From a virus: 64,000 nt of DNA. How positions within the stretch are numbered: the stretch's first letter is position 1; each line of letters begins with the position of its first letter. The notes beneath the pieces are model-generated. The model searched no databases. It had not been told where the DNA came from and saw only the letters and a program-made list of their open reading frames with translations. Both the position numbers and the translations under genes were made by a program. Below are positions 23,283-44,522 of the stretch, in pieces. The stretch covers positions 18,663 to 82,662 of the IMG/VR virus record IMGVR_UViG_3300031787_000056. One strand, written 5' to 3'.

Positions 23283-24067
23283 CGTTTGAGTGTAATGGAT
23301 TTGTTCTTGTTGTAGGAGAACTGGACGTTCTCCCGCTTGAGCCGTTTGATCGCGTCCGAGCCTGTCGAGCCAGCTTTCTGCGCGCCGTGAAGAAGTAACG
23401 CGAAGTCATGTCCGTCGTCCGCCCTCGCGTGACTGTCGTCGTGGTCAATCTCCAGCCCGAGCCGCTCGGCCTCATCCGGGTGGAAGACTATCCGGGCGCT
23501 GCGCAGCTTGTTCGGTTCGATCAGGCTGTCCCACTTTCCTCCCCATGAAGCAGTCAGCACGAAGTTCTTCGGTACCTTCTTGCGGTGGGCGATCCAGATC
23601 GGAAGGCTTTTGGTGTAGGCATAGAACCACCGGTTCGGGTTGCTGCGCGCCGCCGCCATCCAGGCCAGAAAATAATCCTGGTGGTAGAAATCCCCGTCCA
23701 CGTGCACCCGCACGTTGTGCAGCCATGCCGCGGGCAGGGACAGGTCGATGATGTTCGTCATCCGTTCCGTGGTGCGCGCCTCCTGCAGGATGGCCAGATT
23801 GCGATCCACAGACGCGCGCAGCGACGGTGTGTAAGCCTCCATCGAGGCGGCGAAGCAGCGGTGCTCTGACTTCGGCCCGTCGACGAGTCGTTTTTCCTTG
23901 CGGTCGAACCACGCCAGACACTTCTCGGCGCCGGGGCATGTGTAGCCGGCCGGCAGCGAGAAGGTGGCAGTGCCTTCGATTTTTGCATTGCCTATACCGA
24001 AGAAGAGCGTGCGGCGCTCTTCAGGATACGGAGGCTTGAGTTTATTGAATGGTGAGTAGGTAGGCAT
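23279..24067 (-). CDS. gp88-family phage protein
   Basis: 262 residues. The N-terminal half shows the pattern of the phage gene-product-88 family: TATFSLPAGYTCPGAEKC, HRCFAASMEAY, VRVHVDGDFYHQDYFLAWM and FYAYTKSLPIW. The Cys residues suggest a metal site. Function of the family is not established. It sits between the primase and MazG-like genes with 1-4 base overlaps. Confidence 0.75.
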   Translation of the reverse strand: MPTYSPFNKLKPPYPEERRTLFFGIGNAKIEGTATFSLPAGYTCPGAEKCLAWFDRKEKRLVDGPKSEHRCFAASMEAYTPSLRASVDRNLAILQEARTTERMTNIIDLSLPAAWLHNVRVHVDGDFYHQDYFLAWMAAARSNPNRWFYAYTKSLPIWIAHRKKVPKNFVLTASWGGKWDSLIEPNKLRSARIVFHPDEAERLGLEIDHDDSHARADDGHDFALLLHGAQKAGSTGSDAIKRLKRENVQFSYNKNKSITLKR

Positions 24068-25536
24068 TAAAGGCTGCGTTTTAAGCGCTTGAGCGCTCGG
24101 TTAAAGATCCTCTGGTATTCTTCTGGCGTCAGGTCGCCCAGGTCCTTCCCTGCTGGGAGTTCCAGTTTGGCGAGCGCCAACATGATCTGCTCCTTGTGCT
24201 GCGTGGACCCCAACAGCTTGGCAATCTTCTCCGTCGCCTCGCGGCCAGCGACGTCGTCGTCGAACGCCAAGAACACCAGGTGAAAGTGTCTTACCACCTT
24301 TGCGGCGTTCTCCAGGCTGATGGACGAGCCGGTGACGGGGAGGACACCGGGGCCTCCGCGCCCGCCGTCCAGTGGTCCTTCGGTGAGCACCACCCACTTG
24401 AGATCGTCCGGATCGCTCTTCGCGCGCGCGATCGCCGCGTCCCACCCCATCAGCTGCCGCTGTGAGTATTTCGCGGTGCGATACTTCGACGGTCGGAACT
24501 TGAGCACGCCGTCCTTGACTTCGTCGTAAGGCGGTATCGGCTGCCACGCCGCCTTGGGGTTCGCTCGGGTGTGCGTGTGGCTCCAGACGCACAGCCAGTA
24601 GCCGCCTCGCTGCTCGTCTCGCACCATCCGCATCTGGTCTCCCGGTCCGCCCGACTTGAACGATGCCCTGTGCGATCTGGCGATCGTCGATAAGTCGAAC
24701 CCGCGGTAGAAGCCGCCGCCGTATGGATGCAGCATGTAGCGGTTGAGGCCATCCTCGGACTCCCTCTCGATGACACGCGCCTGCCAGCCCAGTGGCACTC
24801 CGTCCACCGTCGCCTTGAAGATGATGCGGTGCTGCGGCGTGTCCTTCCAGCCGCCTGGCATCTTCCGGTAGAATATCTGCTTCTCGCCGTAGGGATATTC
24901 CTTCACGCAAAACCCAACGTCGAACTGCCGCACGAGTGCCGCGATGTCGTAGCGCCGGTTGACCAGATACCGGACGGCCGGATGCTCAGCGGGCAGCGTG
25001 TCCAGCCCCACCACCTCGCCAGGCGGTGGTGGGGCCATCTCGCCGCTCTTCGGGTCCATCTCCCACATCTCCTTGATGTCGTCCGCGGCGGCCCCGCCGC
25101 GCATGTCCGCGCGGGTGGCGATGTCGGGGAACCGCTCGGAGACGGTCCCCATGTTCAGCAGATCGTCCAGCGGGATCATGTGCGGCTGCCGGGACGACCT
25201 CGTGCGCATGCAGATGCCGGCGCCGTATTCCTGCTTCTTGCGCAGCTCCTCCCGCTCCTCGAACATGCCCGGTCGCCAGGCTTGCCCCGCGGTGGTATCG
25301 CGGTAATCGCCGAGCCCGGCCAGCACGCTCAGGTTGATCGCGTATTTCGGATCGTCCAGCTCGCGGCGACCGTGATCCTCCAGACACTTCGGACATGGGA
25401 TGTAGAGGTGGTAGCCGCTGACCTCGCGCGCGAGCACCGTGGGGCACCCTTGCACCTCCGTGATCCTCTGCGCCCATTTTCGAACCTCCTCGGGCGCGTG
25501 GGCCGCGCTGTCGTTTGTGTGGATGTCGTTGCTCAT
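24067..25536 (-). CDS. DNA primase with TOPRIM domain
   Basis: 489 residues. A CPKC pair lies near residue 52 in the N-terminal zinc-binding part. The TOPRIM core is clear: VVLTEGPLDGGRGGPGV (catalytic Glu) and HLVFLAFDDDVAGREATEKI (DxD). No helicase domain follows, so it should work with the separate DnaB-like helicase at 32152-33600. The C-terminal basic helix (NRALKRLKRSL) could contact DNA or the helicase. Overlaps the gp88-like gene by 1 base. Confidence 0.87.
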   Translation of the reverse strand: MSNDIHTNDSAAHAPEEVRKWAQRITEVQGCPTVLAREVSGYHLYIPCPKCLEDHGRRELDDPKYAINLSVLAGLGDYRDTTAGQAWRPGMFEEREELRKKQEYGAGICMRTRSSRQPHMIPLDDLLNMGTVSERFPDIATRADMRGGAAADDIKEMWEMDPKSGEMAPPPPGEVVGLDTLPAEHPAVRYLVNRRYDIAALVRQFDVGFCVKEYPYGEKQIFYRKMPGGWKDTPQHRIIFKATVDGVPLGWQARVIERESEDGLNRYMLHPYGGGFYRGFDLSTIARSHRASFKSGGPGDQMRMVRDEQRGGYWLCVWSHTHTRANPKAAWQPIPPYDEVKDGVLKFRPSKYRTAKYSQRQLMGWDAAIARAKSDPDDLKWVVLTEGPLDGGRGGPGVLPVTGSSISLENAAKVVRHFHLVFLAFDDDVAGREATEKIAKLLGSTQHKEQIMLALAKLELPAGKDLGDLTPEEYQRIFNRALKRLKRSL

Positions 25537-27159: not shown

Positions 27160-28944
27160 TTAAGCCGGCACGACGGCCGGCACGTCTTGTAGGTGTCCCC
27201 AGTAGGCGGCGAGCTTCAGCTTGCCGGCCTTGTTCCAGTCGCAGAAATCCTCGCCGTTCGGCTTGTGCTTGACCCATAGATTGATGCCGTCCTTATCGAT
27301 CGGAGCGTCCTCATCATCGGCAATAATCGGCGGCTCGGGAATGCCCACCGCCCCGCCGCGCAGCAGGAGCGAGTCTGGAAACATGTCGAGCAGCTTCGGC
27401 AGCACCCTGCGCTCCAGCTTCGACATGCGGGTGAGCGACACGACCGGCAGGAAATGCACCGCGTAAATCGCGGCCGCCTTGTGCCCCAGCGTAACCATCA
27501 TCCGCAAGGCTTCGCTGTCGTGGAACGCCTCGGGGTGCTCCGCGAAGTCAGCCCGGGCCTCCTCGAACTCGTCGAGCGCGTCCTGCAGATCGATCGCCGG
27601 CGCCCGGTTCGGCAGCGTGTAGGCCCGCGTCGTCCTGCCCATCTGGCATTCCTCGGTGCCGCACAGCTCCGCCAGGTCGCCGCGAGCCACCAGCTCGTCC
27701 AGCAGCGCCAGCGTGACGCCGGGGATGTCCCTGCGGACCTGTGTGCGCGGTATGCGCCTGTGCGTGGATTTCTCAATCGCTTCCTCCATCGCCCGCTTGG
27801 CCACGGCGAGCCGGGGTGCTGTCACGAAGATGTCCCGCGGATGCCTGAGGTTGAGCATCCGCTTCTCGAACCCTGCCTGCCCGCTGGCCATACGGTAAAT
27901 GTAGCGAGCCATCCCCTGTGCAAACTCCAGCGACTTCGCGTCCAGCTCCACTTCGCGCAGCGGGCCGTCCCGGTTGGTCTGTGCGGCCTCCAGGAATGAA
28001 TTGACCATGGCCGCGCGCGCGGCGAACAGGATGGCGTTCTCCGGCGACGTCGGCGAAGTTTCCGCCAGCTTCACCTGCCACGCCGGCACCTCGGGAACGT
28101 CCAGCAGATGCGACAGCTGCCAGTTGAGAAACTTGCGCCAACCCGCATCAGCGTCGGCCGCGAAGCGAACCTTCACCCGCTTCTCCTCCGGCTTGTCGCC
28201 GAGCGCGAACACCCGACGTGCCAGCGAATACAGCACGTCCGCGCTGGTGCCGCTGAAGATGCCTGGGCGTCCTGGAATGACGATGGTCGTGCCGATACCA
28301 ACCTGTCCGGATGCGGTGTTCTTCACCCGCTCCAGCAATGTCGTCAGATGCTGCTCCTTGCAGCTGCAGAAGAAGTTGAACGCCGGACAGACGCCGGTCA
28401 GCGAGTGGATGAGCGCGCCGCCGGTCGCACCGGCCCGGATGAATGTCTCGTCGGTCGTGCCTTCCATCAGCGTCGTCCATCCGAGGTCACCGGCCAGATT
28501 CCGCGGATTGCTGAGATGCGCGCCGAGCCGGGCGCCGACTGGATCGACGTAAGTGAACGCTCCGTAGTAATGCGTCTTGAGCAGCTCGATGATCGTCGAC
28601 TTCTGCGTCTGATCCTCCTTCCACGCGATGTGCGCACGCATCGCAATTTTGTCCTTCAACTCCCTGAGCTTTGCCTTGTTCATGCCGGTCGCACTCGCGA
28701 GTTGTTCCGGCTGCTGTTCTGCTGCCTCGACTGCGCGCCGGTCTGCGGCTGTGGCGTCGTCGTGGAAGCGCTTGAACATGACCTCTGCGCTCGCCAGATT
28801 GACCAGCGCCATGCTGGGCAGCGCTGAAGTGAACACCATCCCCCGGGTCAGCGGAAATGGCGAGATGTAGCCGCGCCCCAGCGTCGCATGGTAGAGCAGC
28901 AGCTCTGCGAGCATGGAAGCCCGGGGTTCAGTGGTGGATTGCAT
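27160..28944 (-). CDS. Hypothetical replication-region protein, 594 aa
   Basis: Start taken at MQSTTEPRAS (28944). The stretch LMEGTTDETFIRAGATGG, long helical middle and a winged-helix-like C-terminal part (IPGVTLALLDELVARGDLAE) recall the DUF3987 type of primase/helicase-associated protein, but no intact P-loop is seen, so this is weak. It is the first gene after the 507-base gap with the nested inverted repeat, so its promoter may lie there. Confidence 0.75.
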   Translation of the reverse strand: MQSTTEPRASMLAELLLYHATLGRGYISPFPLTRGMVFTSALPSMALVNLASAEVMFKRFHDDATAADRRAVEAAEQQPEQLASATGMNKAKLRELKDKIAMRAHIAWKEDQTQKSTIIELLKTHYYGAFTYVDPVGARLGAHLSNPRNLAGDLGWTTLMEGTTDETFIRAGATGGALIHSLTGVCPAFNFFCSCKEQHLTTLLERVKNTASGQVGIGTTIVIPGRPGIFSGTSADVLYSLARRVFALGDKPEEKRVKVRFAADADAGWRKFLNWQLSHLLDVPEVPAWQVKLAETSPTSPENAILFAARAAMVNSFLEAAQTNRDGPLREVELDAKSLEFAQGMARYIYRMASGQAGFEKRMLNLRHPRDIFVTAPRLAVAKRAMEEAIEKSTHRRIPRTQVRRDIPGVTLALLDELVARGDLAELCGTEECQMGRTTRAYTLPNRAPAIDLQDALDEFEEARADFAEHPEAFHDSEALRMMVTLGHKAAAIYAVHFLPVVSLTRMSKLERRVLPKLLDMFPDSLLLRGGAVGIPEPPIIADDEDAPIDKDGINLWVKHKPNGEDFCDWNKAGKLKLAAYWGHLQDVPAVVPA

Positions 28945-29102: not shown

Positions 29103-29360
29103 CAAAGCCAAAGCCAATCTCGAGATTGCTCGTGCTTTGCTCGTGCTTTGATTTGATAATCACCCGGGTGTCAACGACTTACGTCAAATCCAATCTGGAA
29201 AAGGCCTTTCCTATATAACGCGCGCGCGTTTTATTCCGGACCTCTTATATAAGAAGCGTCTTTTCCAGATTGGATTTGACGTAAGTGCCTGCTGTTGTTT
29301 GTTTAATCAAATCAAAGCACGAGCAAAGCACGAGCAATCTCGAGATTGGCTTTGGCTTTG
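29103..29360. repeat. Nested perfect inverted repeat, replication origin candidate
   Basis: Outer arms of 55 bp (29103-29157 and 29306-29360) and inner arms of 27 bp (29177-29203 and 29260-29286) pair without mismatch. The 56-base centre has two TATATAA-like runs and a CG alternation. Each outer arm also holds direct repeats (two GCTCGTGCTTT in tandem, AAAGCC twice) and the palindrome AATCTCGAGATT. Large cruciform-capable repeats with iterons and AT-rich elements are usual at origins; this is inference. A transcription control region is the alternative. Confidence 0.93.
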
Positions 29361-29451
29361 ATTTCGAGATGGGCTTTGCATTCTACCCGGTTTTTCCAGA
29401 TGTGCTATTTCATTAGACTAAACTATCGGGACACCTCGACGATTACGGCAT

Positions 29452-29907
29452 CTACATCAAAATTCGCTCACGCCGTTCCATGTACACGACGCCGATGACG
29501 TGGTTGCTGCCTTCCTCGATTGCGATACGCCACCCCTCACCGGGATTCCCGGGAATGCCTTGCTCTTGCAGCAACGCGGACGCCTCCTCGTAGGTGCAGA
29601 CTCTCAGCTCGAGTCGTCGGTATCGCTTGAAGATTCGGTAGTAGAGGCTTTTCAACGCGCGGAGTAGCAGCTGAAAACCAGACGCCGGCCTGGTTTTCAG
29701 CCTCCGGATGTAGATCATCTGAAACTCCCTCGGGGTGCGCAGCGACGTTCTTCCCGGATGATAATGCTCACACCAACGCCCGGACGGCGGATAGAAGAAG
29801 CGGTCTCCAGCTATCACCTCCTCATCGTCTCCGAGCCTGCGCCAGCCGTCTGGGATCTCCAGCGTCGAGTTGAGCGCGTCATGCTGTGGTGTTGTGCTGT
29901 TTGTCAT
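29452..29907 (-). CDS. Hypothetical protein, 151 aa
   Basis: Starts MTNSTTPQHDALNSTLEIPD. Has an aromatic N-terminal part (GDRFFYPPSGRWCEHYHPGR) and a basic middle (YYRIFKRYRRLELRV). A perfect 12-bp inverted repeat (29670-29681 and 29690-29701) lies inside its coding sequence. No family recognised. Confidence 0.65.
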   Translation of the reverse strand: MTNSTTPQHDALNSTLEIPDGWRRLGDDEEVIAGDRFFYPPSGRWCEHYHPGRTSLRTPREFQMIYIRRLKTRPASGFQLLLRALKSLYYRIFKRYRRLELRVCTYEEASALLQEQGIPGNPGEGWRIAIEEGSNHVIGVVYMERRERILM

Positions 29908-29925
29908 AGGTGATGGTGATTGTGT

Positions 29926-29953
29926 TTGACACTGCGCGTTGTTGCGCTATTTT
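29926..29953 (+). promoter_or_regulatory. Sigma70-like promoter, plus strand
   Basis: TTGACA (29926-29931), 16 bp, TATTTT (29948-29953). The -35 box is perfect. A transcript from here meets a strong terminator at 29999-30032 after about 70 bases and would not reach the structural gene unless it reads through. Confidence 0.6.
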
Positions 29954-29998
29954 TCCCGCGTCGAGATGCTCGTCGCATTGTATCTCAACAGCCAGCGG

Positions 29999-30032
29999 AA
30001 CGCCGGCCCTCACGGGCCGGCGTTTTCGTTTT
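29999..30032 (+). terminator. Rho-independent terminator (or attenuator), plus strand
   Basis: 11-bp arms (29999-30009 and 30014-30024) around a 4-base loop followed by TTTTCGTTTT. It lies between two promoters, so it ends a short transcript or protects the structural gene from upstream reading. Confidence 0.8.
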
Positions 30033-30050
30033 GTGCGCCAGAGATGAGTC

Positions 30051-30079
30051 TTGCACCCCGGAGAGTTTTCGCCTACATT
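30051..30079 (+). promoter_or_regulatory. Likely promoter of the plus-strand structural gene
   Basis: TTGCAC (30051-30056), 17 bp, TACATT (30074-30079), fifty bases before the ATG at 30129 and after the terminator. The -35 box resembles the TGCAA core of the phage promoters but the -10 differs. No Shine-Dalgarno is visible before the ATG. Confidence 0.5.
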
Positions 30080-30128
30080 CGCGCCTCTGTAAATCCCACG
30101 CAACAAAACCCATCAACTACACACTACC

Positions 30129-31271
30129 ATGACTGTCCGAGTTCCCACTACCAATCTCAGCGGCAACGACGGCCGCGCCGGCTTCCGCGACGTCGACTTC
30201 AAAACGGCGCAGGACCTCTCGGTCACGTTCCCGAAAGTCGGCAAACGCTACCGCATCAAATCCATCTCGATCATCTCCAAGACGGTCTCAGTGCTGACCA
30301 ACGGCGCGACCGTAGTGGCGAACGAAGCGACCACCAGCGCCGACACGGACGCGCAAGTCACGCTGACCAGCAGCGGCACCCCGCCGACGAACGGCGAGAC
30401 AGTCACGCTGGGCAACAAGACCTACACCCTGAAGGATTTCGTGAAAGCATCCGGGACGCTGACGTCGGACGGCACAGCCCCTTCGGACGGCGACACCGTC
30501 ACCATCGGGAACAAGACCTACACGTTCAAGACGGCCCTGACGCCCACGGAAGGCCAGGTGTTGATCGGGGCCGATGCCGCTGCGGCCTTGGACAACCTCA
30601 AGTCGGCAGTCAACCACACCGGGACTCCTGACACGGACTACAAGTGCGCAGCCGCCCACACGCAAGTCGAAGCGACCACGAACACGGATACGACCCAGCT
30701 GTTCGTGGCTCTGGATGCCGGCACCGCTGGTAACGCTCTCGTCACCACGGAGGCGGGCACGCATACGTCCTTCGGCGCGGCCACGCTCACCGGCGGCACT
30801 GACCCGACCGTCGAGGGCGAAGTGAAGATCGGCGTCTCTGCTGCTACCTGCCTCGACAACCTCAAGGCCGCGGTCAACAAGGACGCCGGCCACGGCACCC
30901 TCTACTTCGCTGCGGCGGCCCACACGCAGTTCACGGCGACGACCAACTCGGACACCACGCAGCTGTTCGTGGCCAGCGTGGGTGCATACACCGGCGCAGG
31001 CGGCAACGGTCTCACCGTGTCGGACACCTCGTCCACCCTGACCTGGAGCGTGGCGACACTCGCTGGAGGTCTGGACGGCGTCCTCGTCAACGAGATGGTC
31101 GACAGCACCAACCTCGCGGACACCGACGAAGACGGACTCGTTCAGCACCTCACCCTTCGCTCCGACGCAGAGGTCATCACCGGCGGCAACGCCCTGATCC
31201 TCTCCATCCGCGCCGGGGCATCGGCCAACACGGACGTGAAGGACGTGGACATCGAATACAGCGTCATCTAG
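30129..31271 (+). CDS. Repeat-containing virion structural protein
   Basis: 380 residues, Thr/Ala/Gly-rich, no Trp-rich or catalytic motif. Contains repeats of the type GDTVTIGNKTYTFKTAL and AAAHTQ-EATTNTDTTQLFVA (second copy AAAHTQFTATTNSDTTQLFVA), a beta-rich module common in phage capsid-decoration and tail proteins. The N-terminus (MTVRVPTTNLSGNDGRAGFR) is distinct. It is a single-gene plus-strand unit with its own promoter and terminator among minus-strand genes, fitting strong separate expression. Capsid decoration versus fibre cannot be decided. Confidence 0.75.
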   Translation: MTVRVPTTNLSGNDGRAGFRDVDFKTAQDLSVTFPKVGKRYRIKSISIISKTVSVLTNGATVVANEATTSADTDAQVTLTSSGTPPTNGETVTLGNKTYTLKDFVKASGTLTSDGTAPSDGDTVTIGNKTYTFKTALTPTEGQVLIGADAAAALDNLKSAVNHTGTPDTDYKCAAAHTQVEATTNTDTTQLFVALDAGTAGNALVTTEAGTHTSFGAATLTGGTDPTVEGEVKIGVSAATCLDNLKAAVNKDAGHGTLYFAAAAHTQFTATTNSDTTQLFVASVGAYTGAGGNGLTVSDTSSTLTWSVATLAGGLDGVLVNEMVDSTNLADTDEDGLVQHLTLRSDAEVITGGNALILSIRAGASANTDVKDVDIEYSVI

Positions 31272-31534: not shown

Positions 31535-32155
31535 TCATTGGATTTTTTTGATGACTTCGCGTGCGATGACTCCGCACGCTTCTCGGTCGCGGTTGTGCGT
31601 ACCATCCGGACGCATCGGCGACGCAATCAGATCCAGCGCCGCGAAGCACGCAGATAACTTGGCGCGAAGTAGAGCCTCAGTCTCCTGCGCGCACCCAAGC
31701 GCCGCCCACGGCTCATCTCCGGCGCGGAATAGTTGCTCCTGCGCAAGCTTGAGGTCGGCGGTGAGTCTCTCTTTCTCCGCAAACCACCCGTTCAGCTTTT
31801 CCTCCAGTTCCGCGATACGCTTGACCTGCGCGGCGATTGTCTCGTCCGCGAACTGCGACGAGTAAGGGCGCTTGCCCTTGAGCGCGACGGAGAGCTGCCG
31901 GTTGAGTTCATCGAGCGCAACATCGCCCACACGTTCAGCGGCCTGCACGTAATCCAGCATCCCGTCCACCTGCGGCAGGATTGCCAAGATCAGCTTGTCC
32001 CGGATGCGCCAGTCGCCCGGATCCATTCCGAGCGCAAGCATCGCAGTGACGGCGATCGCGCGCGAGGCAGAGACGCCTTCTTCGTTGTCGAGTCGCCACA
32101 CGCTACCTGACTTGACTCGCCGAACTGCGAAGGGATTGGTTTTTGGTTTGCTCAT
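31535..32155 (-). CDS. Hypothetical coiled-coil protein, 206 aa
   Basis: Start at MSKPKTNPFAVRRVKSGSVW, overlapping the helicase stop by 4 bases. Residues about 105-150 predict a coiled coil (VKRIAELEEKLNGWFAEKER). It is co-encoded with the DnaB-like helicase, so a replisome role is conceivable, but no family is recognised. Confidence 0.65.
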   Translation of the reverse strand: MSKPKTNPFAVRRVKSGSVWRLDNEEGVSASRAIAVTAMLALGMDPGDWRIRDKLILAILPQVDGMLDYVQAAERVGDVALDELNRQLSVALKGKRPYSSQFADETIAAQVKRIAELEEKLNGWFAEKERLTADLKLAQEQLFRAGDEPWAALGCAQETEALLRAKLSACFAALDLIASPMRPDGTHNRDREACGVIAREVIKKIQ

Positions 32156-33600
32156 GCTGTCTTTGCTGTGAATCGCTGGAACCGGAACTCCCGGCGCACA
32201 GGGATGTTGTTTCCCTCGCCCTTTCTGGCCTTGCACGCACAGAACAGCTGATCCTCCAGAAACATGCTGCGTGGCATATCAGCCTTGCCGCGCTCCGCAG
32301 CCAAGATACCAGCCTTGTCGATCGTGTTGGTGATGCCGATGACCGCGACCATGTTCTTGCCGAGCCCCTTGCTGATGCCGATGTCGTTGATCGTCAGTAC
32401 GCGCTTGAGCTGCGCGTCGTTGACCCCCTGCGCGAGGAGCAGCGTCGGGATCCCGGACCGGTCCGCGAACTTCACGCCGCTGTTGGCCGACTGCTCCCAG
32501 AGCATCGCCCGCTCCGAGGTGCCGCCTTGCCGCCCGCCCGACGAGACGTCCGCTACCGAGCCCAGCCAGTCGAGACACACCCAGGTCGGGTCGTGCCCCA
32601 TCCTGGTCTTGTAGATCATGCACTCCCGTTCGAGCAGCATCTGCAGATTCATCCCGTCATCCGGGGAGACTTTGTGGATGCGCGTACGCTCCAGAAACTT
32701 GGCCAGCACCTCGTCCACCTTCTTGATGCGATACATGGACGCGGGGTTGCTCATGACCGCCTGCCGGATCTGCGCCACGTTCTCGCAGTCCTGCACGATG
32801 TTGATCGGGATGCCGGCCGCATTGGACACCGTCCGTGCGGCATACTCGCGAGGTTGCAACTCCGTGGTCACGATCAGCGGCCAGCCGTGGTTGTGGCTGG
32901 CCTCCCACCACGCGCACTGCCCGGCAGCGATCGATTTCCCAGACCCGGTGCCGCCAAACATCAGGTAGCACTCGTTGGGCCCCCATCCGCCGTTCAGGCA
33001 CTCGTCCAGCCCTGTGATGCCTGTGGGGCGCCTCAGCGTACGTTCGAGGATCTGACTGCCGGCGAACGCCTGCATGGGGTCCTCCGCGCCTTCTGCGACC
33101 GCCTGGGCCGCGGCGGAGAGGGACCGCTGCATCTCGACGATCTGCCCGGGCACGTCGGGAATCACGTCCCGCCGGAGCACCAGCGCGGCTTTCTTCGCGC
33201 GGATGCTGCCATACCAGGCCTCGAAGTAGGGCCGGATGCAGTAGTGCTGCGCGCAGAACGACGGGTTCTGCATCTCCTTGATCAGATTCACCGCGCGCGC
33301 AATGATCTCGTCATCGGAGCTTTCCGTCTTCGCGGCGACCTCCAGGTAGGTGCGCAGGAACTCGTAGGTCGGCGGGCACGGCACCTGGTGCCCGATGACG
33401 TGCATGATCTTCACGGCGCTGGTCAGGGCCGCCACGATCAGCGAGTGCTCTTCCCGCTCGAAGTCATCATCCGTCACCGGGACGCTGAGCATCGCTGCGC
33501 GCATCAGCGGATCGTGCATCATCGCGTGCAGCAGGTAGAACGCGTAGGTGTCGCGGTTGTCCGCGAGCCACTGCTTCATCTCATCTGTGATCTGGGCCAT
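32152..33600 (-). CDS. DnaB-like replicative DNA helicase
   Basis: 482 residues. N-terminal helical part, then the linker TGITGLDECLNGGWGPNECY typical of DnaB/RecA-type motors, Walker A MFGGTGSGKS, Walker B TWVCLDWLGSV, and LLLAQGVNDAQ near the position of the sensor motif. Known role: 5'-3' hexameric unwinding at the fork. Works with the separate TOPRIM primase at 24067-25536 (inference). Confidence 0.85.
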   Translation of the reverse strand: MAQITDEMKQWLADNRDTYAFYLLHAMMHDPLMRAAMLSVPVTDDDFEREEHSLIVAALTSAVKIMHVIGHQVPCPPTYEFLRTYLEVAAKTESSDDEIIARAVNLIKEMQNPSFCAQHYCIRPYFEAWYGSIRAKKAALVLRRDVIPDVPGQIVEMQRSLSAAAQAVAEGAEDPMQAFAGSQILERTLRRPTGITGLDECLNGGWGPNECYLMFGGTGSGKSIAAGQCAWWEASHNHGWPLIVTTELQPREYAARTVSNAAGIPINIVQDCENVAQIRQAVMSNPASMYRIKKVDEVLAKFLERTRIHKVSPDDGMNLQMLLERECMIYKTRMGHDPTWVCLDWLGSVADVSSGGRQGGTSERAMLWEQSANSGVKFADRSGIPTLLLAQGVNDAQLKRVLTINDIGISKGLGKNMVAVIGITNTIDKAGILAAERGKADMPRSMFLEDQLFCACKARKGEGNNIPVRREFRFQRFTAKTA

Positions 33601-39849: not shown

Positions 39850-40211
39850 GGTAGTTTGTTCCCTTCGGTTGCAGCAGCCGACGCGCCGCTTCCGGCATCG
39901 CGGCTGACTTCTGCGATATGCGGCTGATCCAGTTCAGGATCGTCCACGGCGGGCGACTCCATCATCGCCACCACTTCTTTCAGGAACGCCAGCAGTTCGC
40001 CCGGAGTCTCTAGTGGGCTGGACGTTGATACTCCGAGCAGCAGCCTGCCGCTCACTCGCATTTCCACGCGCCGCATATCCAGGGCATGGAGCGAAGCGGC
40101 TTCCTGTGTGTCGTTTTCGGTTTCAGTTTTCATAAAGTTAGTGCTGCGATTCACGGTCTCGCCGCGCGCGACCAGGAACGCCGTCGCCAGATTTGGAATC
40201 TCCGTGTCCAT
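39846..40211 (-). CDS. Hypothetical protein, 121 aa
   Basis: Start MDTEIPNLATAFLVARGETV, one base overlapping the SbcC-like stop. The middle (DMRRVEMRVSGRLLLGVST) is beta-like and the rest polar. Unknown. Confidence 0.6.
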   Translation of the reverse strand: MDTEIPNLATAFLVARGETVNRSTNFMKTETENDTQEAASLHALDMRRVEMRVSGRLLLGVSTSSPLETPGELLAFLKEVVAMMESPAVDDPELDQPHIAEVSRDAGSGASAAATEGNKLP

Positions 40212-42733
40212 CACGCAGGAAGCTCAATCCGGTCGCTGAACGCCTCGATGAGCGTCGGGGAGTGGTCGCAGACGATCATCTGCAGCGTGCCCTCTTCGCC
40301 GATCTTCCGGAGCATGTCCGCCATAGCGCGTTTGGCTTCTTCGTCCAGATGCGTGGTCGGCTCGTCCAGCGACAGGAGTCCCACGTTTGGCATGATCATC
40401 GCGTGCAGCGCGCGCAGCGTAGCCACGGCCAGGCGCACCTTCTGACCGCCTGACATGCGGCTTTGCGGCATCCAGGCCTCGTCCGCGCGGTCGGTGCGGA
40501 GGAAGTCATAGGACAGCGGCAGATCCTCGCTCGCCGAGACCATGAAGTCTGCGCCGCTCTCCGCCAGATAATCCCCGGCCAGTTGTGCGATCTGCCCGAA
40601 CTTGTAGTTCAGGAATTCGAGGCTGGCGCCGTTCGGTCGGAACGTGTCGCGCAGCATCTCCAGATCCTTGGCGAGCGCCAGGCGCGTCTTCTGTTCCGCG
40701 GTCCGAAGGTCGAGCTCGTCGATCTTGCGGCTCGCCGCCTTCATCGACTCGTTGGCGGCGTCATGCCGTCCGCGGGCCTCGTCGAGGGTCTGCTGCGCCT
40801 TCTCGAGTTCGGTCAGTTTGCTCTGCACCATCTGCTGCGTCAGCACCGGGGCACCGTCGCTCGGGAAGAATCCCAGCGGCACATCAGCAAGCAATTTGCG
40901 CAGGCTGTCGTGCGCGGCTTCCATGCTGCGCTGCGCGGCGTCGACTTCCGCGATCTGCTTCTGTACAGTCTCCACTGCGTCGCTGGTGCTCTTGGCTTCC
41001 TCGGCGGCGTCGTGAAGCATTGCACCATCGATCAGCGCGCGCCACGGCGCGTCTTTCAGCGCTTGCGCCTGGCTCGCCTCTTGCGCGACCAGATTGTCGA
41101 TCTCGTGCTGCGTCGGCTCCGTCTTGCCTTTGACAGCGACCCTGTAGCGGTCCACGACCTGCGTGAGACGCGCGTGCTCGTGCGCCTTGGCGTGCCACGC
41201 CTGCAGCTTTGCCGTCGCTTCATTCAGCCCCTGCTGTGTCGTCTCCCTGGTAGTCAGCGACGTTTCAATCTGCAGCCGCCTCTGGTCGTTCAGGTGCTTT
41301 GCCAGCGCGTCAGCCAGCGTCGCGTGCGCGCGTTGCAACGCGCCCGCATCCTTCTGCTTGGCGCGAAGAGCGTCGCCGCTGACCACCCCCTTGTCCTCGG
41401 CCTTTTTCAACTGCCCCTCGAGGTCTGTGATTTCCTTGCGCAGATGCTCTGGGTCAGGAGGCGTCGTGCCGCCACAAAGCGGACAGTGATCCGAGTGTCC
41501 CCCGCCGACTTCGAGTCCACGCAGAAGATCACGCCGCATCTGCAGAGCATTGCGAATCAGAACGTATGACTCCCGGTTGGCGTCATACGCAGTCTGCAAG
41601 GCCGCGACGACTTCTGTGCCCGCGGTCACCTTCTCCTCTGCCTCTCTCTCGCTCGCAGTCGCGCCGGGGATGGATGTCGTCAGCGTGTCCAGGTCGTCGA
41701 ACTTCTTCAGCATCGCCTCGGCGCGTTTGACGGACGACTCGGGACTGTCGCCCAGCTCTCCGGCCTCTTTCAGCTTCGCTTCCGCGTCTGCGAGTTCCGC
41801 GAACTGTTGCTTGAGCCCGCGCGCGCTGAGCAGAGCCAGGTCCGTCTTGGACTGGTCTGCGCTGGCTTGCAGATTCGCCTGCTTGCGCTGCGTCAAACTG
41901 GTCAGCTTCTTCTGCCACTCTTGTTGCTGCTGGCGCGCGTTGACGAGCCACAGGGCAGCGTCCTCGCCCGCTGGGACGTGCTGCTGCAGCTGCGTCTTGG
42001 CCGCTGTCGCGGCATCCTCCGCTGCCGCAACCGCGCTGTATTGGGACGAAACATTGCGGACCAGCGCCAGATACTCGGCAGGCGAAGGCAACCCTTTCAT
42101 CTCCGACTCGCATGTCTCGAAGAAACGGCGGGCCTCTTCGTAGGACGCCTGGGCGGCGTCGCGCACTGCGCCGAGATCCTGCACGCTGCTCGCGACGGTT
42201 TCCCGATGCGTCTCGATCACGTTGGCAATCTTCGCGAGGTGCCCCAACATGAGCAGTTTGGTGTAGAACTCCCGGCGGTCAGTCTCGAGCCCGAACATGC
42301 TGGCCATCTCGCCCTGCCGGATGAACACCGTGGAGTTGATGGCCTTTTTGTCGACGCCGAGGATGTCTAACATGATGCTGCTGACCTCTGCGTCGGACGT
42401 GATGGGCTTCTCGGCCCCGTCCCACCACAGCTTCCTGGTCACTGTCGTGCGCGTGATGCGCCGCTGGATCTTGCCGACCTTGCCGTCCGCCACGAACTCC
42501 AGCGTCACCTCGGCCGCGGCCGGCGGATTTTCGCCGCTCGACCGGCGGATGAATGCGCGCAGTGGGTCCGGGTGGTCGATGGTGCCGGTGAGTCCGAACT
42601 GAATGGCCTGCAGCACAGTCGATTTGCCGCGCCCGTTGGGGCCAGCCAAGCCGACGACGCAGCCCTGCAGTTTGCTTTTGATCGAGTGATGCCGACCGAA
42701 GTCGGTGATTTCGATGGATGTGATTTTGATCAT
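40211..42733 (-). CDS. SbcC/Rad50/gp46-like recombination ATPase
   Basis: 840 residues from MIKITSIEITDFGRH. Walker A GPNGRGKST (34-42), long coiled coils with the zinc hook CPLCGG in the middle, the ABC signature MSGGQKVRLAVATLRAL, and Walker B LLSLDEPTTHLDEE. Known role with SbcD/gp47: processing of DNA ends. It is separated from the SbcD-like gene by the HNH protein. Confidence 0.93.
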   Translation of the reverse strand: MIKITSIEITDFGRHHSIKSKLQGCVVGLAGPNGRGKSTVLQAIQFGLTGTIDHPDPLRAFIRRSSGENPPAAAEVTLEFVADGKVGKIQRRITRTTVTRKLWWDGAEKPITSDAEVSSIMLDILGVDKKAINSTVFIRQGEMASMFGLETDRREFYTKLLMLGHLAKIANVIETHRETVASSVQDLGAVRDAAQASYEEARRFFETCESEMKGLPSPAEYLALVRNVSSQYSAVAAAEDAATAAKTQLQQHVPAGEDAALWLVNARQQQQEWQKKLTSLTQRKQANLQASADQSKTDLALLSARGLKQQFAELADAEAKLKEAGELGDSPESSVKRAEAMLKKFDDLDTLTTSIPGATASEREAEEKVTAGTEVVAALQTAYDANRESYVLIRNALQMRRDLLRGLEVGGGHSDHCPLCGGTTPPDPEHLRKEITDLEGQLKKAEDKGVVSGDALRAKQKDAGALQRAHATLADALAKHLNDQRRLQIETSLTTRETTQQGLNEATAKLQAWHAKAHEHARLTQVVDRYRVAVKGKTEPTQHEIDNLVAQEASQAQALKDAPWRALIDGAMLHDAAEEAKSTSDAVETVQKQIAEVDAAQRSMEAAHDSLRKLLADVPLGFFPSDGAPVLTQQMVQSKLTELEKAQQTLDEARGRHDAANESMKAASRKIDELDLRTAEQKTRLALAKDLEMLRDTFRPNGASLEFLNYKFGQIAQLAGDYLAESGADFMVSASEDLPLSYDFLRTDRADEAWMPQSRMSGGQKVRLAVATLRALHAMIMPNVGLLSLDEPTTHLDEEAKRAMADMLRKIGEEGTLQMIVCDHSPTLIEAFSDRIELPA

Positions 42734-42746
42734 GTAATGAGTGTGG

Positions 42747-43307
42747 CTAGAATGGACAGTTTGGGTCGTCCGGGATGGTGTATTCGCCGCTGTCCTCTTC
42801 ATCTAAGACGTCGGACTCCTCTCGGTTGTCCATCGCCAGGTATTTCGCATTCCTCTCCTGGATGTCGTCGCGTTTGCGTTCCAGCATGTGCTGCACGTGC
42901 TCTGGCAGGTAGCGCTCCTGATGCGATTTCCATGCGTTCAGCTCCACCGTCACCACGCGCATGTTGCCCTCCTCGTAGCCGAGCGTCGGATTCACGCGGT
43001 CGATCGTCAGCACCGAATCGTCGCCCTCCTTTTTGGAATACAGACCGAAGGCGTCCACCAACCCTCGCCAGTAGTCCAGCGTGATCCTGAACGGTATTTT
43101 CCGCTCGGCCGCGTGGTCACGCAGCGTGCAGTAGTCCGCGGTTTTCTTCTGCTGCGCGCGCCAACGCCGCATCTCGTGCATGTGACACAGACACCGATCG
43201 TCCCGCGACGCGCGCCGGCAGCCTTTTACCCAGCACAGTCCGTCGCCGGAATTCCCCTTGAACTCGAAGAATCCTTCGGCAAGCAGAGCTGCGCTGGGTT
43301 TCGGCAT
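42747..43307 (-). CDS. HNH-type endonuclease-like protein
   Basis: 186 residues. A zinc pattern CWVKGC...CLCHMH precedes LTIDRVNPTLGYEEGNM and VVTVELNAWK, which matches the HNH pattern DRxNxxxGYxxxNxxxxxxxxN. Acidic C-terminus. It lies between the SbcC- and SbcD-like genes, a usual place for free-standing homing-type nucleases in phages; a packaging or recombination role is possible instead. Confidence 0.72.
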   Translation of the reverse strand: MPKPSAALLAEGFFEFKGNSGDGLCWVKGCRRASRDDRCLCHMHEMRRWRAQQKKTADYCTLRDHAAERKIPFRITLDYWRGLVDAFGLYSKKEGDDSVLTIDRVNPTLGYEEGNMRVVTVELNAWKSHQERYLPEHVQHMLERKRDDIQERNAKYLAMDNREESDVLDEEDSGEYTIPDDPNCPF

Positions 43308-43313
43308 GTCAGC

Positions 43314-44522
43314 CTATTCTTCATTTTCCCTGACGGCTGCTGCGACCAGGCGAGCCTCGATCAGCTCTGCCACGATATTGCTAGCGTCGCTCTCGCCGCG
43401 GTGCAGGAGATCCAGCGCCGTCTTCTGCAGGTCTTCCCGGTCCTTGAATCGCTGACTCACGAAGTATTCCATCGTGAACTCCTTCTCGGAGTCCGGTGAA
43501 TCTTTGACTCTCGCCGGATGCGCCTGCGTGTTGGGCAGCGGGTAGCACCGTATGACCGCGCGCTGGGCGTCCAGCATCGAGTGCAGCCGGTTGATCGTCT
43601 GCGGAAACTGCCGGTCGAACTGCACGACCGCCACAGGATGCTGCGCGGCCACCGGCTCGATACGCAGCATGAGCGCGTCGAGGTCATCGGCGGTGCGCAC
43701 CTCCGCGTTGATGAACGGACGTGTGTGAATCGGAATCGTCTCCTTCAGGATAGCGCCCTCGGCAGTCAGCCGGATGATCGGCACAGACTTGCCGATCGGC
43801 TCGCCAGCGTTGCACATCTCGGTCGACCCCGGGTAACCAATCAGGCACTTGCCTCCGCCGGGACGGTCCAGCTGCTGGAACCCCTGCAGGTGGATGTCGC
43901 CGAGCAGCCAGGCCTTGTTGTGCTTCGAGATCGGCAGCTCGGACACGTGCAGCGGGTCCGGTGTGTGTATCGGGAACTTCACCACACCGTCGATGAGTCC
44001 GTGGAACAGCACGACGTCTGCCTGCCGCACCCGCACGGTGATGTTCGCCAAGTCGCCGCGGAAGCTGGCTGCGGTGTGCGGCGTGAGCCCCACGATGCGA
44101 TAGCCACGGAAGACGACGCTGGAGTCGTCCAACGGCACGATGCCTGTCTCACCTTCAAATAGCGTCTCGGTGTCGTCGTCCGTCAGATTTAACGTGCGCC
44201 CCGGAAACAGCGTCTGCAGCCACGTGGGCGTGCTCCAGTCGTGGTTGCCGGTGATGGTGAATGCCACCTTCCCGGCGCTCCGGATCATCTGGTCGATGTG
44301 CATCAGCTGTCCGATCACCTGCGGGCTCGGCCGAGGGCGGTCGAAGATGTCGCCGGTGATGCAGATGATGTCCGCGTGCTTCAGCGCCGTCTCGACTGCA
44401 TTACGGAAGCCGTCGTAGAAGTCCTGGCCCCGACGGGCAGCCGCGTATTGTGAGTCTCGCAGGTGGGTGTCACCGATAAGTGCGATCAGAAGATCGCTGT
44501 TTGGGGTCGCATTTTTTGCCAT
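43314..44522 (-). CDS. SbcD/Mre11/gp47-like nuclease
   Basis: 402 residues. Calcineurin-type motifs: GDTHLRDSQ (near 17), CITGDIFDRP (near 55), FTITGNHDW (near 92), and LFHGLIDGVV/WLLGDIHLQG with the expected His residues. This is the nuclease partner of the SbcC-like protein. Confidence 0.92.
   Translation of the reverse strand: MAKNATPNSDLLIALIGDTHLRDSQYAAARRGQDFYDGFRNAVETALKHADIICITGDIFDRPRPSPQVIGQLMHIDQMIRSAGKVAFTITGNHDWSTPTWLQTLFPGRTLNLTDDDTETLFEGETGIVPLDDSSVVFRGYRIVGLTPHTAASFRGDLANITVRVRQADVVLFHGLIDGVVKFPIHTPDPLHVSELPISKHNKAWLLGDIHLQGFQQLDRPGGGKCLIGYPGSTEMCNAGEPIGKSVPIIRLTAEGAILKETIPIHTRPFINAEVRTADDLDALMLRIEPVAAQHPVAVVQFDRQFPQTINRLHSMLDAQRAVIRCYPLPNTQAHPARVKDSPDSEKEFTMEYFVSQRFKDREDLQKTALDLLHRGESDASNIVAELIEARLVAAAVRENEE

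Follow-up and report, generated by a model that had tools for sequence, protein, structure and literature searches.

A 258-bp nested dyad between dnaB and the primase gene as a candidate replication origin of large phages

Introduction

Where large phages that encode a replisome of their own start replication is seldom known, and the locus described here raises the question of whether a nested inverted repeat (dyad) may be such a start site in one of them. The window, that is, the whole stretch of 64,000 nucleotides analysed, comprises bases 18663-82662 of G000, an IMG/VR virus contig of 82.7 kb. Its genes are those of a large phage that has a replisome of its own and recombination genes resembling those of T4. 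For replication it encodes a polymerase (PHROG 17), a primase, a DnaB-like helicase, a Dda-like helicase, and RecQ-like and other helicases, and for recombination a UvsX-like recombinase and SbcC-like and SbcD-like proteins. The dyad spans 258 bp (29103-29360) and was regarded as a functional, origin-like element in a first-pass annotation. From sequence comparison, we consider it rather probable that the dyad serves a large dsDNA phage as a cis-acting site at which replication is initiated. As a candidate it is precise, with a box of 13 bp that can be defined and a small set of candidate initiators, in a phage for which GC skew gives no answer.

Results

None of 50,697 phage records matched the middle 20 kb of the window at the DNA level, and tblastn searches of the same records with the window primase, DnaB-like protein and P0001, the product of the gene next to the dyad, gave no matches. 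The window polymerase gave only partial matches in phage records, at 22-27% identity, and its best named match was a phage DNA polymerase of family A. No match was found in the cellular genomes searched. Among the relatives compared, G001 (126,971 bp) is identical to the window at the dyad locus, G002 (L003; 184,016 bp) is 97% identical to the window, and G003 (98,463 bp) is identical to G002 across the 20.8 kb compared. G004 (L028; 200 kb) represents a second lineage, whose relatives of P0001, primase, DnaB and polymerase show 60-74% identity to those of the window. The third lineage consists of L059 and L060, two near-identical contigs of 77.8 and 38.5 kb, with 59% identity to the window in the polymerase, 52% in the primase and 36-37% in P0001. 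All conclusions are drawn from these three lineages, and sampling is sparse for two of them.

The architecture described by the first-pass annotation proved exact to the base. Two outer arms of 55 nt (left, 29103-29157, + strand; right, 29306-29360, - strand) are 100% complementary to each other and enclose two inner arms that pair perfectly over 27 nt (left, 29177-29203, + strand; right, 29260-29286, - strand), the left one reaching 42 nt at 90% when followed to 29218. Between them lies an asymmetric core of 56 nt (29204-29259) with both of the TATATAA elements reported before (29211-29218 and 29244-29253, the latter a palindrome) and a AACGCGCGCGCGTT element (29217-29230). The dyad is far beyond chance: neither the window nor the 184-kb G002 has another inverted repeat whose arms, 20 nt or longer, lie within 300 bp, and compared with dinucleotide shuffles its strand folds better by 21.7 s.d., into a near-perfect hairpin. 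The same structure is present in the independent contigs G001, G002 and G003, which rules out the objection that the symmetry is an assembly artefact. Two statements about its surroundings had to be corrected. The dyad had been described as the only large non-coding region, and a crude codon-usage gene call gives other large gaps; it had also been placed at the edge of the replication genes, and it lies inside them, with the SbcCD-like, helicase and dnaB genes on one side and those for primase, Dda, polymerase, UvsX and RecQ on the other.

The repeat unit of the dyad is a 13-bp box, CCAATCYSGAAAA, present in four convergent copies. Boxes 1 and 4 are the outer ones and read CCAATCTCGAGAT (29114-29126, + strand, and 29337-29349, - strand), while the inner boxes 2 and 3 read CCAATCTGGAAAA (29190-29202, + strand, and 29261-29273, - strand). 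Their four CCAATC hexamers are spaced 76-78-76 bp in the window and 77-78-76 bp in G004, and the inner form CCAATCYGGAAAA is found nowhere outside the dyad locus in G002 and G004. When up to two mismatches are allowed, G002 and G004 each have six CCAATCYSGAAAA-like boxes no more than 400 bp from the centre. In the window, two extra degenerate boxes on the - strand sit on the P0001-upstream side of the dyad, CCCATCTCGAAAT at 29361-29373, which is a perfect CCAATCTCGAAAA in G002, and CACATCTGGAAAA at 29392-29404; the extra copies of G004 are also upstream, on the same side, within 34-bp direct repeats. The tandem 11-bp GCTCGTGCTTT, previously taken for an iteron, is indeed found twice within each outer arm of the window, but it gave 0 hits in G002 and G004 and does not stand as a working iteron.

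In both G002 and G004, no other 258-bp stretch is as A+T-rich as the dyad, and in L059 the two dyad copies rank first and second among such segments. Cumulative GC skew had been proposed as a check on the origin, and no switch was seen at the dyad in GC or AT skew, whether raw or at fourfold sites. In G002 the GC skew, fourfold sites included, has the same sign and size on both sides, and there is no switch in G004. With nearly all genes in one direction, skew counts for little on either side of the question.

The comparison of the arms in relatives, also proposed earlier, showed mirrored changes in G002 and a dyad kept in G004. The dyads of the window and G002 differ at eight positions, six of them in the outer arms, and all six form mirrored complementary pairs (29131/29332, 29140/29323 and 29141/29322). 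The chance of full mirroring is about 1e-5, with the right bases not yet required. Divergence reaches 5.5% in the outer arms and 0.9% in the inner arms and core; it is 2.3% in P0001 and 11% in the adjoining non-coding stretch (29361-29451). Taken alone, the mirrored changes would fit both with selection on symmetry and with copying from arm to arm by template switching.

In G004 the dyad, again between dnaB and P0001, aligns to that of the window with 55% nucleotide identity and one internal gap, and its strand folds with z = -8.7. In a test that uses three sequences only and whose shuffles ignore relatedness, 15 pairs (about 14-15) are altered on both sides, compared with 6.0 +- 1.8 in shuffles (0/500 as high), and controls in which the pairing was slid gave 1-4 such changes vs 15 in the true register. 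These double-sided changes would back kept pairing, as support rather than proof. Pairing kept by compensatory changes, together with the near-perfect hairpin of the window and the strong hairpins of the other lineages, would also suit a dyad that is transcribed and acts as a long structured or double-stranded RNA. We consider this very unlikely, as Rfam gave no match at gathering scores (below threshold, only generic microRNA hairpins appeared), the mirrored box motifs and the highest A+T content suit DNA sites equally, and 24 of the 55 outer pairs depart by unpaired cells only while the box hexamers and their spacing are retained.

Another possibility is that the hairpin is meant to be cut. 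SbcCD cleaves hairpins (PMC6265447), and the phage encodes SbcC-like and SbcD-like proteins as well as a UvsX-like recombinase. The dyad might then be a programmed break site, at which the phage's own SbcCD-like nuclease seeds recombination-dependent replication. Such a role seems highly improbable to us, and it leaves the conserved boxes at fixed spacing and the A+T-rich asymmetric core unexplained. SbcCD-like genes are common in large phages that are not known to carry such a palindrome.

In L059 and L060 the dyad differs in sequence, with 31-bp perfect arms, 39 nt between them and an outer AGCAACGG pair, and that of L059 folds with z = -8.0. The CCAATC box was looked for at this dyad and was not seen. 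Judging from the sequences compared, what is common to all three lineages is architecture and place, not box sequence. The three cores, when that of the window is read on the P0001 strand, show the same order of an A+T-rich left part, an ACGC...CG element and TAGG, a likeness that we take as tentative given the short alignment. A 607-bp tandem duplication at L059:2063-2969, also present in L060, contains the dyad complete for a second time, together with a broken version of a gene for a protein with two tandem helix-turn-helix units (two-HTH gene), and is apparently a doubled origin.

Hairpin-telomere resolution sites, invertible segments and transposon-like repeats are superficially like long perfect inverted repeats with a CGCG core, and N15-type telomere resolution sites have nested inverted repeats near a CGCG-containing core. 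That the dyad is a mobile or recombination element of this kind is, in our estimation, exceedingly unlikely. Its core is asymmetric and not a perfect palindrome, its place and orientation are identical in every relative, there is one copy per genome save for the local 607-bp duplication in L059, and the two ends of G002 share 127 bp, which suits a circular map. The readings as a telomere, recombinase or invertase site were rejected after no telomere-resolvase, tyrosine-recombinase or serine-recombinase domain was detected in G002 or G004. The telomere resolvase PF16684 was absent from both, its control search giving one match among 14 genomes. For the idea of a packaging site, a search for Terminase_6N gave no match.

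In the three lineages the dyad lies between dnaB and P0001, and P0001 is the gene just upstream of primase. In the window these genes are all on the - strand: the DnaB-like replicative helicase at 32152-33600, P0001 at 27160-28944 (594 aa) and the DnaG/Toprim-like primase at 24067-25536. No other structural genes occur between dnaB and P0001 in G004 and L059. P0001 (98%, 60% and 37% identity, the last one 36-37%) is the first candidate initiator because it is the neighbour of the dyad common to the three lineages. It has no family match in Pfam, PHROG, NCBIfam or PDB. Its full-length predicted fold was useless (pLDDT 38); residues 330-452 reached pLDDT 74, and many of their top PDB matches look like winged helices, all with E > 1. 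In this sense, residues 330-452 form a possible winged helix, on model matches below significance. A small two-HTH protein is encoded next to the dyad in G004 and L059 (39.8% identity, E = 9e-20) and matches Pfam HTH_23 with E = 4e-4, below the curated cut-off of the family. The gene was sought in the window and in G002 and was not found, so this protein cannot be the universal binder.

In the main rival explanation, a regulator dimer or tetramer on the four boxes would loop the DNA and control the P0001-primase operon or promoters in the TATATAA elements. The dyad is upstream of P0001 in the operon direction in all lineages, the TATATAA elements are confined to the dyad locus in G002, the dyad has an HTH gene next to it in two lineages, and spaced symmetric boxes at one locus would suit an operator too. 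We nevertheless consider transcription control unlikely. There is no sigma-70-like promoter in the window region, and those of G004 and L059 score weakly or close to chance; a 13-15-bp hairpin separates the dyad from P0001 in G004 and L059; dnaB and P0001 run in the same direction and do not form an outward pair needing a bidirectional promoter; and outside the dyad locus the inner box is absent from G002 and G004.

Discussion

A replication origin is the best explanation for this dyad because it has locus-specific convergent boxes at fixed spacing, symmetry about the genome's most A+T-rich DNA, and a place between dnaB and primase that is kept as the letters drift. The suggestion made by the first-pass annotation gains strong comparative support from the mirrored changes, the box spacing, the place beside dnaB, the unique motif and the top A+T content, although three of its details failed. 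In the mechanism that we propose, an initiator would bind the boxes, either P0001 or possibly, in two lineages, the two-HTH protein. The initiator would pair across the core and then open the A+T-rich DNA, and the DnaB-like helicase and the primase, encoded on either side, would then be loaded at the dyad. If the arms fold back, this may stabilise the opened DNA. At later stages replication probably depends on recombination, as the UvsX, SbcCD-like, Dda and helicase genes may indicate.

Known origins offer partial parallels. The closest one in working, by analogy only, may be HSV OriS, in which initiator boxes in inverse orientation stand on both sides of an A+T-rich spacer. The spacer becomes distorted and opens, and a further inverted box allows the opened strand to fold into an initiator-bound hairpin (PMC12543377); HSV oriL is a longer palindromic relative of OriS. 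The phage dyad differs in having four boxes at about 77-bp spacing, far longer perfect arms and a CGCG element, and no initiator of the UL9/OBP family was found in library scans of the neighbouring proteins, which covered part of the genes. Iteron origins of phages and satellites, such as those of lambda-type O and of the RepA_N of the V. cholerae PLE, have repeated initiator boxes by A+T-rich DNA and replication genes (PMC7145576, PMC7466680). The likeness lies in the clustered boxes, the adjacent A+T-rich DNA and the nearby replication genes; however, the phage boxes form a mirror dyad and not mainly direct repeats, and no O or RepA_N relatives were found among the proteins scanned. Regarding T4, the excerpts of PMC3016281 describe evenly spaced 12-nt repeats at oriE, whose syntenic place is kept in relatives, and the window shares with T4 its type of recombination genes and clustered repeats like those of oriE. 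On the other hand, T4 has several origins, among them oriF and oriG, which rely on R-loops formed from middle promoters, and those excerpts describe no large dyad; also, the polymerase here is of another kind (family A by its best named match). Since no initiator family was recognised, we do not file the dyad in the HSV, iteron or T4 oriE families.

A bolder proposal, which we hold to be doubtful, is that the dyad represents a new class of phage origin. P0001 would then be a new initiator family that recognises a four-box mirror dyad, partly as a folded single-strand hairpin, with its symmetry kept despite drift, and the whole would be an independent bacterial-virus counterpart of the palindromic herpesvirus origins.

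Some observations on the surroundings are also worth recording. The phage that carries this long hairpin-forming dyad has its SbcC-like and SbcD-like genes at 40211-42802 and 43314-44522 of the window. G002 has nothing that corresponds to the interval between primase and P0001 (25547-27163), which is about 1.6 kb long and contains several small ORFs. Between dnaB and the dyad, at 29452-31271, the window's lineage alone has P0002, part of which is missing in G002, and a rightward gene (30129-31271) with a weak match, below cut-off, to phage head-tail attachment proteins. Finally, the dnaB copies of the window, G004 and L059 lack an intein-like insert of about 340 codons that lies in the Walker A loop of dnaB in G002 (L003:8360-10831; GTGGGK/CYSKGTRIL...ITHN/SIAAGQ), and the G003 gene is identical to that of G002.
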